Source: a bacterium (lineage in GTDB: Bacteria; Chloroflexota; Dormibacteria; UBA8260; Bog-877). Taken from it: 5,264 nucleotides of DNA. Each line of letters opens with the position of its first letter. The stretch's first letter is position 1. Under the pieces are notes generated by a model, which searched no databases, was not told where the DNA came from, and saw only the letters and a list, made by a program, of their open reading frames with translations. Both the position numbers and the translations under genes were made by a program. Positions 910 to 5,212 of the stretch are shown piece by piece. The stretch is taken from contig JAKAWF010000270.1 in NCBI GenBank assembly GCA_021817025.1, forward strand, positions 1-5,264, given 5' to 3'.

Positions 910-2526
910 TCAGGGGAGGGGCGGCGGAACTCGGAAGTCGGGCTTGCCCACCAGCACTGTAGGGCTGCGCTTCAGGATGAGCCATGGGCTTTCGGTGACG
1001 AGCGTGAAGTGCGCGTAGACGTAGGCCTCCAGCTTGGGCGTCCACACCATTCGGGTCTGGCTCGCCTGCGAGAGCATCAGGTACTGCGCCCGTCGGAAGT
1101 AGCTCAACCAGAGAGCGGCAGCCTTCGCTTCCCCGACGTGGCTGGTGCGATTCAATGAGATGGTTGTGGTGGTGCCGAATGAATCCACGACCTGGGGGCA
1201 GCGCGACGAGTTGGCGGTGAAACGATTCACCTCCATGGTGAACTCCGGGTCGTCGGTGAGCACGCAGGCGCCTGCTGGGACCAGCGCATCGACCTTGGCA
1301 ATTTGAGCAGCCGTGCTGCTGAGAACGGGAAGGGAGGGCGGGATTGTGGCGGCGTGCAGGACACTGGCGACCAGGACCGCCGCGACCGCGACAACAGCCG
1401 GCAGGGGGCGGGCGGCGGCGACGCGTCCGGCGGCGAGTCCTAGCACCAGGGCCAGAAACGGACCGAAGAAGGCTGGGTAGTGGTACCAGAACTCCGGCGG
1501 CCACATGAGTCCGGCCAAGACCGCTACCGCAGCTGCCAGGCAGAAGCGCTCCAGATCGGTGGTGCGGGGACTGCTCGGCGAGCCTCGCGAGGGGTCAGGC
1601 GGGCCCAGCTCGCGCGGGATGAAGATGAAGGGAAACACCACGGCGATGACGATGGCCGTGCAAATAGCCCCGGTGAGGAGGAGGAGATGGGGCGTCTGGG
1701 GCCCGGTGGTAATGCCCGTCCACAGTCCTGACAGGAACTCCAGCCGCACCACGTGCGACACCAGACTGGGGCCGTTGCGGCTCAACTGGGCCACGATGAC
1801 CTGGTTGACGAAGGCTGCGGGAGCGGAGAGCAGGAATGGGGCACACATCACCAGAAAGCCGGCGGCTGTACCGCCGGCGAATGGAAGCAGGCGCTGCCGG
1901 AGCCGGGGCAGGAACATTAGACCCAGCACTGCGACCGGGAGAATGGCCCAAACCTTCACGGCTCCTGCCACGCCAAACGCCGCCCCTCCCAGCACCAGCC
2001 GTCGCCGCGAGCTGGTGAAGTTGTCTCCGTCGAAGAGCAGGAGTGCGCCGATCAGGCAGAAGAGGTCGAGGATGGGCTCCAGCATCACCGTCAGGGCTGT
2101 CAGGATGCCGTCGGGGTAGAGTGCCAGCGCGAAGCACGCCACCAATACCACAACCGGTGCACGGCGCCGCAGCAGCAACCCCACCAGGACGACGTTGGCA
2201 CCCCCTACCAGAGGCATGGTGACCCGCGCAGCCACGAGCGCGTTCTCAGAGCCGATCAAGTTCCCCAAAGCTGCGAATGGAGTGAGCAGCAGCGGGGCTC
2301 CCGGTGGCACTATCAGTACGAAGTCGCGATACGGGAGGACCCCGTGGAGCAGTCGGATCGCCGCCCCGAGAAAGACCGCGTCGTCATAGTTCCACGAACC
2401 GGTCAGGAAGCCTGACCGCACTTGCCCGTCGAGCCGGAGTGCGATCGCAGCCAGCGCCGCGATCGTGATGACCACCACTATGACCACACGGCGCTGGCTG
2501 CTGACGCTCGATCGCCCGGCAACCAT
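910..2526 (-). CDS. GT-C-type polytopic membrane glycosyltransferase
   Basis: The 538-residue protein has the layout of a GT-C glycosyltransferase. These enzymes sit in the cytoplasmic membrane and move sugars from polyprenyl-phosphate donors onto lipids, glycans or proteins on the outer face. A first membrane helix (about 13-31) is followed by a loop with NYDDAVF, where D48-D49 sit at the usual acidic catalytic position. Next comes LPYRDFVLIVPPG (64-76), a pattern common in this group. Many hydrophobic helices run to about residue 390, including FWYHYPAFFGP (346-356). The soluble tail has LTDDPEF (423-429), typical of a C-terminal outer domain. The start ATG has GAGG five bases upstream. Sugar, donor and acceptor cannot be read from the sequence. 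It lies 174 bases after the secreted four-cysteine protein gene in the same direction, so co-transcription is possible but unproven. Large open frames opposite it are shadows. Confidence 0.85.
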   Translation of the reverse strand: MVAGRSSVSSQRRVVIVVVITIAALAAIALRLDGQVRSGFLTGSWNYDDAVFLGAAIRLLHGVLPYRDFVLIVPPGAPLLLTPFAALGNLIGSENALVAARVTMPLVGGANVVLVGLLLRRRAPVVVLVACFALALYPDGILTALTVMLEPILDLFCLIGALLLFDGDNFTSSRRRLVLGGAAFGVAGAVKVWAILPVAVLGLMFLPRLRQRLLPFAGGTAAGFLVMCAPFLLSAPAAFVNQVIVAQLSRNGPSLVSHVVRLEFLSGLWTGITTGPQTPHLLLLTGAICTAIVIAVVFPFIFIPRELGPPDPSRGSPSSPRTTDLERFCLAAAVAVLAGLMWPPEFWYHYPAFFGPFLALVLGLAAGRVAAARPLPAVVAVAAVLVASVLHAATIPPSLPVLSSTAAQIAKVDALVPAGACVLTDDPEFTMEVNRFTANSSRCPQVVDSFGTTTTISLNRTSHVGEAKAAALWLSYFRRAQYLMLSQASQTRMVWTPKLEAYVYAHFTLVTESPWLILKRSPTVLVGKPDFRVPPPLP

Positions 2527-2677: not shown

Positions 2678-2711
2678 GGCGTGTCACGCCAGGAGGCATG
2701 TCACGCCAGGA
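2678..2711. repeat. 17-bp tandem duplication over the stop codon of the secreted-protein gene
   Basis: Two 17-bp units, 2678-2694 and 2695-2711, differ at a single base (GGCGTGTCA... versus GGCATGTCA...). The proximal unit contains the TGA stop (2703-2701) of the secreted four-cysteine protein. The distal unit contains the 13-base palindrome GGCGTGTCACGCC. The protein end is unchanged whichever copy is kept. The neighbouring 2527-2677 leader of the glycosyltransferase holds further palindromes, such as GCTGCGCAGC (2560-2569) and CCGGC/GCCGG around 2652-2669, but no promoter I can defend. Confidence 0.7.
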
Positions 2712-3692
2712 TAGGAATCGCGAAGTAGTTCTGGGCGTTCAGCTCGGTGACCGAATACGGACTGGAATCGACGATCGTGTACGAGCCCCAAGCGTCCAGG
2801 GTCTGCGCGTTGGCGGGCTGGAAGAACCCATGCACGGCGTACCCGGCGTTGGCATTCAGAGTGCAGGACGTGCAGCTCAGGATCGTCGAAATGCTCTCGT
2901 TGGTCCGCGGTGTGGCTGGCTCGTCATACCCGAATGTGTAGGTCGCCACGTATTCACCCAACGTGTAATCGTAGATACCACCGCCGGGGCCGGACGCCTC
3001 TGCATTCACGACCCGAAACGATACGTTGTCTCCAGGTGGAATCTCCGTTCCGCCAGCGATGCTACCCTGGTTGCTCGCGAAGAAGGGCACGGCACGGAAT
3101 AGAATGCCGAGCCGTGCTGCCCAATCAGTAGTCCGGTGCGAAGAGTGTTCTGAGAGTTGACGACGGCAGCGGAGACGGTAACAGTCGCGCTGCTCGGAAC
3201 ATTCCACGAGGTCGGCACTGTACCGTCGATGCTGGTGCCCCATGTGGTCCCGCTGCCAGAGACCGCTTCGGGTTGGGGGTCGGCCCCAGCACCTTGCGCG
3301 CCGGAGCCCTGGCTCGAGGGCGTGGCTGTGGTCGGGGTCGCAGATGCCGAGGGCTCGAAGTTCACGTAATTGCACTTGGGCGCCTGGCACAGGAAGGTCA
3401 TCTGTACCATCACGTTCTGAATGGTATTGCCGCTCGCGCTGGGCTCAAAGGAGAGCGCCTGCTGGCACGCCGGGGACAGGTTCGCTCCGAAGCAGGAAAC
3501 ATAGTATCCGCCGGCCGGGGCGGGCGTAGGGACGCTGAAAGGCCCGGGCGGCGGTTGGATCGCGTACCCCGCCGGCGAATGTGCGGGGCTCAAGCTGCTG
3601 GCGCTGGCCCCTATCATGGTGATGCCGAGGCTGAGTAAACTGAACACCACCACAGCGGACACGCGCATTGCAAGATGTCGATGTGGACGCAT
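2701..3692 (-). pseudogene. Frameshifted secreted protein: four-cysteine domain plus C-terminal beta-rich domain
   Basis: Read as given, the frame starting at ATG 3692 ends early at 3006 after 228 residues. The natural continuation lies in another minus-strand frame and ends at TGA 2703-2701. Removing one copy of a 5-bp repeat (3086-3095) joins them into 328 residues. The repaired protein has a signal peptide: Arg/His-rich start, hydrophobic core about 11-28, and an ASA site suggesting cleavage after residue 31. Next comes a four-cysteine domain (about 46-114; C67, C76, C102, C107), a Ser/Thr/Pro/Gly linker (about 115-150), and a probably beta-rich domain to the end with a CTSC motif (272-275 after repair). 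The four-cysteine domain is shared with the membrane protein encoded just upstream. A strong AAGGAG site supports this start. It is unclear whether the shift is a real mutation or a sequence error. Both frames keep sensible composition on either side, so any break is recent. Function is unknown; it is probably extracellular or surface-bound. Confidence 0.8.
3086..3095. repeat. 5-bp tandem duplication causing the frameshift
   Basis: GGCAC is repeated back to back on the + strand (GTGCC GTGCC in the gene's direction). With one copy removed, the codons read TAT TCC GTG CCC TTC TTC GCG, giving Y-S-V-P-F-F-A and joining both halves of the secreted-protein gene. The total length then becomes 987 bases, exactly 329 codons including the stop. 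Replication slippage or an assembly or basecalling error would both look like this. Confidence 0.8.
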
Positions 3693-3698
3693 GTTTGG

Positions 3699-3704
3699 CT
3701 CCTT
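3699..3704 (-). promoter_or_regulatory. Strong ribosome binding site of the secreted-protein gene
   Basis: Reading the minus strand, AAGGAG lies six bases before ATG 3692-3690. It selects this ATG over the in-frame ATG at residue 9. It is the clearest Shine-Dalgarno sequence in the window, which suggests this gene was well translated even though it is now out of frame. Confidence 0.75.
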
Positions 3705-3742
3705 TTCACAAACCGAAACTGATAGCAGGACATCTGCGACCT

Positions 3743-3760
3743 GGACTGTTCAGACAGGCC
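3743..3760 (-). terminator. Weak hairpin between the two four-cysteine genes
   Basis: CTGT and ACAG form a 4-bp stem around a 4-base loop. GG and CC extend it past one mismatch, 18 bases after the membrane-protein stop. There is no T-run. It could cut readthrough from the membrane-protein gene into the secreted-protein gene, or it could be chance. Evidence is thin. Confidence 0.2.
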
Positions 3761-3778
3761 GTAGCATTCTGGCGATGG

Positions 3779-4339
3779 TTAGGGCGACATAGTTGGGGTC
3801 GGCGACGCTGTGACAGGCTCGAAATCCCGGTATGAGCAGGTCGGTGCCTCGCACAGAAACGTCATCTGCAGCATCGGGACCGAGATCGTGGCGGCGGTCA
3901 CGTTTGGTTGAACGGATAGCACCTGCTGACACGCCGCGGTCAGGGTCTGCCCGAAGCACGACACGTAGTAGCCGCCGCGCGGCGCGACCGTGGGCTCGAG
4001 GAAGGGACCCGGCATGGGTTGCACCATGGCGGCAACGGCCGTCGCAGGCGTGCCGGGTCCCAGGAGATAGTGAATACCGACGGTCGCGACCGCAGCCACA
4101 AGCGCTGCGCTCAGTCCGATAGCAGTTAGGATCGTGCCCCGGCCATGACGTCGGCCACTGCTGCCAGCGGCAGCCGCCGGGCTCGGCAGGGTAGGGTGAC
4201 ACCAGGCATCGACGACGCCGACGAGAAGGTCCAGCATCGTGCGTGCGGTCCCCGGAGTCGCGCGGAGGTCAACCTCTAGCTCTGCGCCGTAGCGCGCGCG
4301 CCACGCCGGAGGGTAGCAGTGGACCCACCACGACTTCAC
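3779..4339 (-). CDS. Single-pass membrane protein: helical cytoplasmic head, four-cysteine outer domain
   Basis: This 186-residue protein starts at GTG, whose last two bases lie within the PadR stop codon region (GTGA overlap), so its translation is probably coupled to PadR. Residues 1-50 (CYPPAWRARYGAELEVDL, then a second helix with LDLLVGVVDAW) resemble small helical heads found on membrane proteins encoded next to PadR regulators in Gram-positive bacteria and their relatives (HAAS-like; inference). A basic segment GRRHGRG precedes one membrane helix (about 69-93), which places the head inside the cell. The outer part carries a four-cysteine domain (about 107-175; C128, C137, C163, C168) and a short Thr/Pro tail. 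About 43 of 69 residues match the secreted protein encoded next, with no gaps. Cysteine spacing X8, X25, X4 is identical, suggesting two disulfides or a metal site. The second, beta-rich domain of its partner is absent. I do not recognise the four-cysteine domain. It is plausibly an outside sensor or anchor working with PadR. Confidence 0.8.
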   Translation of the reverse strand: MKSWWVHCYPPAWRARYGAELEVDLRATPGTARTMLDLLVGVVDAWCHPTLPSPAAAAGSSGRRHGRGTILTAIGLSAALVAAVATVGIHYLLGPGTPATAVAAMVQPMPGPFLEPTVAPRGGYYVSCFGQTLTAACQQVLSVQPNVTAATISVPMLQMTFLCEAPTCSYRDFEPVTASPTPTMSP

Positions 4340-4653
4340 GGCAGCCCCGCCCGTGCGCTGAGCGCGTCACTGAAGGCACGAAGTCCGCCGACCTCGGTGC
4401 GTAGAATCTCGCGGCCCATCGCCGTGAGCTCATACGGGTGGCGTCGGCCAGCGGCCGGCAACCCCCTGATCCACCCGCGCCGCTCGAGGCGGGCCAGAAC
4501 CCCGTACAGGGTGCCGGGTCCGATCGTAATCCCAGTAAGATCCCGGACGTCCTGGGTTATGGCATACCCATGGCGAGGGCCGGTCGCCAGGCTGCCGAGG
4601 ACGAGGAGAGCCGGATCGGCGAAGCGGCCAAGACCAGCAAGGGAAGATCGCAT
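4336..4653 (-). CDS. PadR-family transcriptional repressor (short type)
   Basis: This 105-residue protein is a compact PadR regulator, a winged-helix DNA-binding protein that usually acts as a dimeric repressor released by a small ligand or stress. The N-terminal PALLVLGSLATGPRHGYAI (14-32) and the recognition helix region GPGTLYGVLARLERRGWI (45-62) are typical. So are the wing GRRHPYELTAMGREIL (69-84) and a short C-terminal helix for dimer contact. The frame is open upstream to 5157, but that extension has no protein-like character and begins before the promoter. ATG 4653 matches family length and gives the usual start just before the first helix. No ribosome binding site precedes it, which fits a leaderless mRNA. 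It overlaps the membrane-protein gene by four bases. Autorepression together with control of the downstream pair is likely from family habit but is not shown by the sequence. Confidence 0.92.
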   Translation of the reverse strand: MRSSLAGLGRFADPALLVLGSLATGPRHGYAITQDVRDLTGITIGPGTLYGVLARLERRGWIRGLPAAGRRHPYELTAMGREILRTEVGGLRAFSDALSARAGLP

Positions 4654-4660
4654 GGCTGGC

Positions 4661-4689
4661 AGTATAGCGCCTGACGATGTATCACACAA
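4661..4689 (-). promoter_or_regulatory. Sigma-70-like promoter giving a leaderless padR-type mRNA
   Basis: On the minus strand, TTGTGT (4689-4684) and TATACT (4666-4661) are separated by exactly 17 bases. The -10 box matches the TATAAT consensus at five of six positions; the -35 box matches only its TTG. Seven bases separate TATACT from the PadR ATG, so transcription should begin at or next to the A of the start codon. The absence of a Shine-Dalgarno sequence agrees with this. It would drive PadR, the membrane protein and perhaps the secreted protein. Confidence 0.6.
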
Positions 4690-4698
4690 CGGTATAGC
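4662..4698. repeat. GTATAGC direct repeats flanking the PadR promoter
   Basis: GTATAGC occurs at 4662-4668 and 4692-4698, exactly 30 bases apart. The first overlaps the -10 box and the second sits just upstream of the -35 box. That puts both on nearly the same face of the helix, as expected for paired operator sites. PadR proteins more often use inverted ATGT/ACAT-like sites, so these are candidates only. Confidence 0.35.
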
Positions 4699-4699
4699 C

Positions 4700-5212
4700 T
4701 GATGTGGGGTGTGGGACGAAAAGGTGCAGGTCCACGCCAATGTCTGGGGGGCAATGGCCGGGTCTGGGCGTGTGAAGGTGGGATGGGCGCCCAGGGGGAG
4801 CCGAGAGAGGCGGGGAGCAGCGTCTGGCCGAGGGCTGGATGAGTGTTTGAACTCATCGACAGGCCTCTTCGCCTGCAGCCCGTAGAGGCCGGCCGCGATC
4901 AGGGGGAAGTCAGTCAGAGACCCAGCAGCGTCCGGGGGTAGCGCCAGTCGGAGCAGTAAACGAGACGATTTGTAGTGACCGCTTGACGCGAACCAAGTCC
5001 GTCTCGACTGGGATCGCTCACTGAGACAGCCACAGGTCCATCCCGAGCCGTTGTTTGGTGTCCGAACGGTGCTCTGCACATCCTTGCTGACGACTATCCA
5101 GACGGAAATGTTCTGCAACTCCTGCCCAGCGGCTTGGAGGCTGCGATGGAACGTCACAGGGGCATCGGACGTTGGTGTCGAAGTGCTCCATAGCTACAAC
5201 ATTGAGGTGGGC
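4700..5212. other. Long non-coding stretch with palindromes upstream of PadR
   Basis: No protein I recognise is encoded here on either strand, although the PadR frame stays open through most of it. A perfect 7-bp stem, GATGAGT/ACTCATC with a 6-base loop, lies at 4838-4857. Five bases on, GGCCTC (4862-4867) pairs with GAGGCC (4885-4890) over a 17-base loop. No T-run follows either. The stretch separates the PadR module from a possible divergent gene and could hold its promoter or the remains of a lost gene. Confidence 0.45.

Follow-up and report, generated by a model that had tools for sequence, protein, structure and literature searches.

A domain of 69 residues with four cysteines was found in two neighbouring proteins, a predicted one-pass membrane protein (A) and a predicted secreted protein (B), encoded in a cluster headed by a PadR-like transcription regulator. 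The domain is likely new, and A is most likely a PadR-coupled one-pass sensor, the outer domain of which would, by analogy with Clostridium RsgI, be reused on a secreted effector. As a tentative account, to which we give somewhat less than an even chance, padR, A and B form a PadR-coupled surface-sensing unit, in which B carries the ligand-binding domain of A and acts on what A detects. The domain is thus rare, and its proposed role in sensing can be tested, the PadR-coupled sensor context being the more useful point.

The window, i.e., the whole 5,264-nt stretch of DNA that was analysed, contains on its minus strand, in this order, padR, the gene of membrane protein A, the gene of secreted protein B and the gene of a large membrane protein (2526..910). 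The features of the cluster are as follows.

4336..4653, minus strand: PadR-like transcription regulator, 105 aa, first gene of the cluster (Pfam PF03551)
3779..4339, minus strand: membrane protein A, 186 aa, GTG start, predicted one-pass sensor (open reading frame, hydropathy, relative P0002)
4190..4339, minus strand: A residues 1-50, PadR-linked N-terminal module (YPPAWRARYGAELE ... LDLLVGVVDAW), predicted cytosolic, common to P0003-P0005
4058..4141, minus strand: A residues 67-94, predicted transmembrane segment (19-residue hydropathy windows up to 2.15)
3815..4021, minus strand: four-cysteine domain, A copy, residues 107-175 (43/69 identical to the B copy)
3006..3692, minus strand: secreted protein B as read in the window, 228 aa, with frameshifted tail (open reading frame; frame compared with P0006)
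3597..3692, minus strand: B residues 1-32, signal-peptide-like N-terminus (sequence; hydropathy of P0006)
3351..3557, minus strand: four-cysteine domain, B copy, residues 46-114 (43/69 identical to the A copy)
2701..3090, minus strand: rest of the C-terminal domain of B, in another frame than the start of B, containing CTSC (matches P0006)

The sequence-only reading, the interpretation of which was partly supported overall, had missed the PadR context, the N-terminal module of A and the frame change in B. The regulator matched the PadR winged-helix family PF03551 with E = 2.4e-14 and 53.5 bits (cutoff 27), and the 3' end of its gene (4653..4336) overlaps the gene of A by 4 nt at 4336-4339, the two being adjacent as in a HAAS-PadR dyad; A and B are separated by 86 nt. 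A PADLOC match of the PadR protein to Cas10 (13.6 bits, E 0.004) was rejected. In the region 5' of padR (4654-4700), two copies of GTATAGC spaced 30 bp apart (4662, 4692) and a TATACT box 7 nt ahead of the padR ATG were seen by eye as candidate promoter and PadR sites; a consensus promoter scan upstream of padR found none. Elsewhere in the window, the 538-aa protein at 910-2526 (minus strand) appears multi-spanning by eye and matched the PMT glycosyltransferases (PF02366) weakly, below cutoff, with E 0.07, and a LuxR-type helix-turn-helix is encoded at 388-606 on the plus strand (PF00196, E 9.3e-16; scanned stretch of the open reading frame 130-606). No sigma factor was found among six window proteins scanned against Pfam, the LuxR-type protein scoring 26.0 with Sigma70_r4_2 (cutoff 25.7) versus a far better 57.6 bits with GerE.

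Protein A is composed of the PadR-linked module, the transmembrane segment and the four-cysteine domain, and its relative P0002 shares 89% identity with it across 98% of the query length. Because its single hydrophobic stretch (about 67-94) is preceded by R63, R64 and R67, the four-cysteine domain of A is predicted to lie outside the membrane. For B, the intact relative P0006 (330 aa; 92% identity across 89% of B as read in the window) showed a hydropathy peak of 2.29 at residues 9-27, conforming with a signal-peptide-like start, and B is predicted to be secreted. The topology of both proteins was read from hydropathy, and it fits the earlier proposal that both domain copies reside outside the membrane. 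A ribosome-binding-like AAAAGGAG was noticed by eye ahead of the ATG of B (3692).

The architecture of B comprises the predicted signal peptide, the four-cysteine domain and a C-terminal domain. Comparison with P0006 revealed that the frame of B departs near 3090 (3085-3110, minus strand), at about residue 200, with the remainder being readable in another frame to 2701; the change may be either an error of sequencing or a true frameshift. P0008 (hypothetical protein WA976_03685, source name Candidatus Dormiibacterota bacterium), which was added by the profile search described below, resembles P0006 from residue 96 on, chiefly in the C-terminal half (41% over 240 columns); it has the C-terminal domain of B and differs in lacking a detectable four-cysteine domain, with a single cysteine in total. 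Judged by P0008, the one relative with a named source, the window may derive from that phylum or a neighbouring one, and the bacterium probably belongs to a lineage not yet cultured. Mediator Med13_C was rejected as an identity for B, its match to residues 89-213 being below the Pfam cutoff (E 8e-4, 19.3 bits, cutoff 26.1; E 0.03 in P0006), overlapping the end of the domain and lying mostly on the Pro/Ser-rich linker; Sdh_cyt matched B 5-43 below threshold (E 0.07). Gene B ends in a tandem repeat (2676-2709) of two 17-nt units (GAGGCGTGTCACGCCAG), which are 94% alike.

The sequence-only reading had counted about 43 identities in a gapless alignment of the two domain copies, with identical cysteine spacing, silent codon differences and a protein sequence kept by selection since the duplication, and these claims held throughout. 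Exactly 43/69 identities were found between A 107-175 and B 46-114, as compared with a maximum of 13/69 and a mean of 5.1 when one copy was shuffled 2000 times, and BLASTP of whole A against whole B gave E = 7e-31 as a single comparison. The spacing X8, X25, X4 was confirmed with all four cysteines in register (A: C128, C137, C163, C168). At 21 of the 43 identical residues the codon differs, and dN/dS is about 0.33 (NG86, dN 0.30 and dS 0.91, rough values from 69 codons), the protein sequence being conserved. The B copy is identical to the copy in P0006 at 63/69 positions and to that in P0007 at 57/69. Any disulfides among the cysteines stay putative, as the structure models, with pLDDT 58 and pTM 0.43 for the domain and pLDDT 32 for full P0006, are too weak for disulfide placement or fold matching. 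The domain is preceded by a Pro-rich stretch and followed by Thr/Pro-rich tails. Such flanks would suit a docking module on flexible linkers, and together with the presence of one domain in each of two neighbouring genes, at the identity given above, they are consistent with a self-association module, whereby secreted B would dock on the copy of A as ligand, co-receptor or decoy, instead of binding an external molecule itself.

This homotypic contact is, in our estimation, rather improbable, and the uneven change of the domain between near-identical sensors speaks against it. Window protein A, listed as P0001 in the protein searches, differs from P0002 at only 2 of its first 112 residues versus 21 of the last 74, including 18 of the 69 domain residues (51/69 identical), while B and P0006 show no such contrast, with 15 differences in 200 residues, only 6 of them in the 69-residue domain; the A and B proteins compared here may not be matching partners. 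Fisher's exact test gave p = 6.6e-8 for the contrast in A, an optimistic value, as it comes from one sequence pair and the boundary at 112 was picked after the differences had been seen. The cysteines and the GGYYVSCFG, ACQQ, QMTFLC and FEP blocks are unchanged between P0001 and P0002. Simple copying of the domain of B into A was rejected as the cause, as P0002 keeps the A-type QPMPGPF, FGQ and CSYRDFEP. Possible causes are diversifying selection, recombination with an unseen paralogue, relaxed constraint or misassembly. If the first applied, the outer domain could be under pressure from phage, rivals or kin recognition, and sensor and secreted protein would constitute a recognition system that renews its surface. 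The concentration of the differences in the domain, with cysteines and core motifs kept, agrees with this explanation, to which we nevertheless assign a very low probability: the other causes would account for the single pair equally well, the contrast is absent from B, and no defence family in PADLOC matched A or P0006.

That the domain could not be placed in a named family, as originally stated, is supported by the family searches, which returned no credible match in Pfam, NCBIfam (queried with A and the window's B), PHROGs (A, P0002, P0006 and P0008), PADLOC (A, P0006 and P0008) or PDB sequences. Against Pfam, the domain alone matched no family at E up to 10 and A none at E up to 1, and PDB sequences matched at E 0.38 or worse. 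Two single proteins (E up to 0.01) and one profile (E up to 1) served as queries against about 5.8 billion proteins grouped at 90% identity. The profile search scored the 7995 candidates sharing most words, and all these searches reach relatives with exact 5-residue words, so that distant ones may be missed. Within this set, the domain was found only in P0001, P0002, P0006 and P0007, in addition to the window's B, the clusters of P0002, P0006 and P0007 having 12, 5 and 4 member sequences, respectively.

Exact peptide patterns of A, which reach close relatives, gave 49 stretches and no relative in 84,980 GTDB r220 species genomes, a collection that presumably includes Dormibacterota. In viral contigs, alignment A2 as the query likewise gave 49 stretches, none a relative, and the domain of B had no match in plasmids; a weak phage match to it (E 0.6, 33% identity) was taken as chance. 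Whole-genome profile searches yielded 0/5 genomes at E up to 0.1, 1/80 at E up to 0.01 in the phylum of the genome of locus L005, and 0/396 at E up to 1e-4 in that of locus L001, where at most 7 candidates were scored in each of 20 genomes listed; all three sets lie outside Dormibacterota, and empty results of this kind carry no weight unless a genome known to be positive is included. The one match, in G034 (model positions 106-173; E 0.0037 in a single genome of the 80), was put down to chance. The source phylum is probably little studied, and literature searches on secreted or surface proteins of Dormibacterota and on PadR with four-cysteine returned nothing usable among the matches listed. 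In its widest form, which we hold to be fairly unlikely, the proposal would be that of a new extracellular domain family, seen so far in one narrow, perhaps Dormibacterota-related lineage, that provides recognition to both a PadR-coupled transmembrane sensor and a secreted protein of the same cluster and diversifies its surface quickly on the sensor. Such a system would be the PadR-based equivalent of RsgI sensing, with a ligand-binding fold not seen before.

The first 50 residues of A recur in P0003, P0004 and P0005 (E 4.6e-6, 1.8e-5 and 2.6e-3; 23-25% of the query), which match the N-terminal part of A only and are without a detectable four-cysteine domain. No Pfam or NCBIfam model covers this module in the proteins scanned, and the first 62 residues of A matched no Pfam family at E up to 10. 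The module, of about 50 residues, unnamed and with the pattern YPPxWRxRY...DAW, may deserve its own family. With the PadR gene as the query, 15 loci were fetched, eight from Streptomyces or Streptacidiphilus, four from Acidobacteria metagenome-assembled genomes (MAGs) and one each from MAGs named Krumholzibacteriota, Thermoanaerobaculia and Gemmatimonadetes. A module profile was built from the first 62 residues of A, P0003, P0004 and P0005 and run on 840 open reading frames of at least 60 aa, taken from these 15 PadR loci and L016. Its five best matches among the 840, in L001-L005, all lie just after PadR (E 4e-14 to 2e-9); L007, L009 and L011 had one frame each at E 0.001 to 0.004, and in seven of the 15 PadR loci nothing was found at E up to 1. 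The PadR frame overlaps the following module frame by 4 nt in L001, L002, L004 and L005, as in the window, with L003 being left out of this reading, as its frame as called starts upstream. Hence, the N-terminal module and its position after PadR are more widespread than the four-cysteine domain.

On P0003 (223 aa) and the L001 protein (295 aa), the module sits on longer proteins that appear multi-spanning by eye and carry no detectable cysteine domain. This would fit A and B being general envelope proteins, with the cysteine domain as a disulfide-stabilised structural module and PadR reacting to membrane stress instead of a ligand bound by the domain. Work on Listeria points the same way, two of the three PadR repressors studied mainly regulating their own operons with membrane proteins, and the authors assuming that the repressors respond to envelope-acting compounds (PMC6624303, accessible part). 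We regard such an envelope role as rather unlikely, as it leaves unexplained why a membrane-bound and a secreted protein both retain the same domain and why this domain changed rapidly between P0001 and P0002.

The PadR-coupled sensing reading favoured here would operate as follows. A would span the membrane, its short N-terminal module touching PadR on the cytosolic side, while its outer four-cysteine domain would bind a ligand or surface polymer. Binding could alter the grip of the module on PadR and thereby transcription of the cluster, and B, as one cluster product, would be exported with the same ligand-binding domain and a second, probably beta-rich domain. This reading is supported by the PF03551 match, the position of the module after PadR in L001-L005 and the recurring 4-nt overlap, and also by the domain common to A and B with its dN/dS and by the modular look of both proteins, which follows from P0003-P0005 matching the N-terminal part of A only and P0008 the C-terminal half of B. 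The logic proposed for HAAS-PadR pairs (PMC11237479) and RsgI (PMC4711584), as given in the accessible parts of both papers, lends it further support; by the latter analogy, A and B would share the domain because the sensor probes the binding target of the secreted protein. The presence of the domain on both proteins suggests that the same outside molecule is handled by sensor and secreted protein. Against the reading, A does not show the sequence features of the published HAAS domain, 10/15 PadR loci are without a strong match to the module, and B, starting 86 nt after A, could have its own promoter. Furthermore, B is frameshifted in the record, implying that it may be dispensable or that the record holds a sequencing error, and the weak structure models lend no support to a binding site.

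To our knowledge, what PadR-adjacent membrane proteins sense is mostly unknown. An outer part common to a sensor and a secreted protein of the same cluster would offer a direct route to the ligand via the secreted copy and would give an orphan domain its first function.

PadR regulators adjoin membrane proteins in many bacteria, and HAAS-PadR pairs, in which a short domain of the membrane protein is proposed to pass the signal to the partner PadR, have been put forward as an alternative to two-component systems (PMC11237479, accessible part). The present cluster resembles these HAAS-PadR-like wHTH dyads, as far as that text describes them, in having a PadR-like regulator beside a membrane protein with a short, typically N-terminal module before varied sensor or transmembrane parts. 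It differs in that the N-terminal 62 residues of A have neither a Pfam match nor a GxP motif, and in its single transmembrane segment, outer cysteine domain and secreted protein sharing that domain. As no DUF1700-like HAAS profile matched A in Pfam (the presence of DUF1700 in Pfam-A being taken from the wording of the accessible part of PMC11237479) and the GxP of the kinked three-helix HAAS fold is absent from the sequence of residues 1-62, A was not classed as a HAAS member. The Listeria operons are alike in combining a PadR repressor with transmembrane proteins of unknown role, and differ in that the accessible part of PMC6624303 mentions no domain-sharing secreted partner and in belonging to an unrelated bacterial group.

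Also close are the RsgI anti-sigma-I factors of Clostridium thermocellum, the outer module of which resembles that of secreted enzymes; according to the accessible part of PMC4711584, the GH10 module of RsgI6 is 57% identical to xylanase Xyn10D, and sigma-I6 recognises the predicted promoter of Xyn10D. Here, too, the outer module of a membrane sensor recurs in a protein predicted to be secreted, at 43/69 identity. Unlike in RsgI, no sigma-I or RsgI domain was found in A with Pfam and NCBIfam, the common domain is an unnamed one rather than a known carbohydrate module, and the regulator is PadR.
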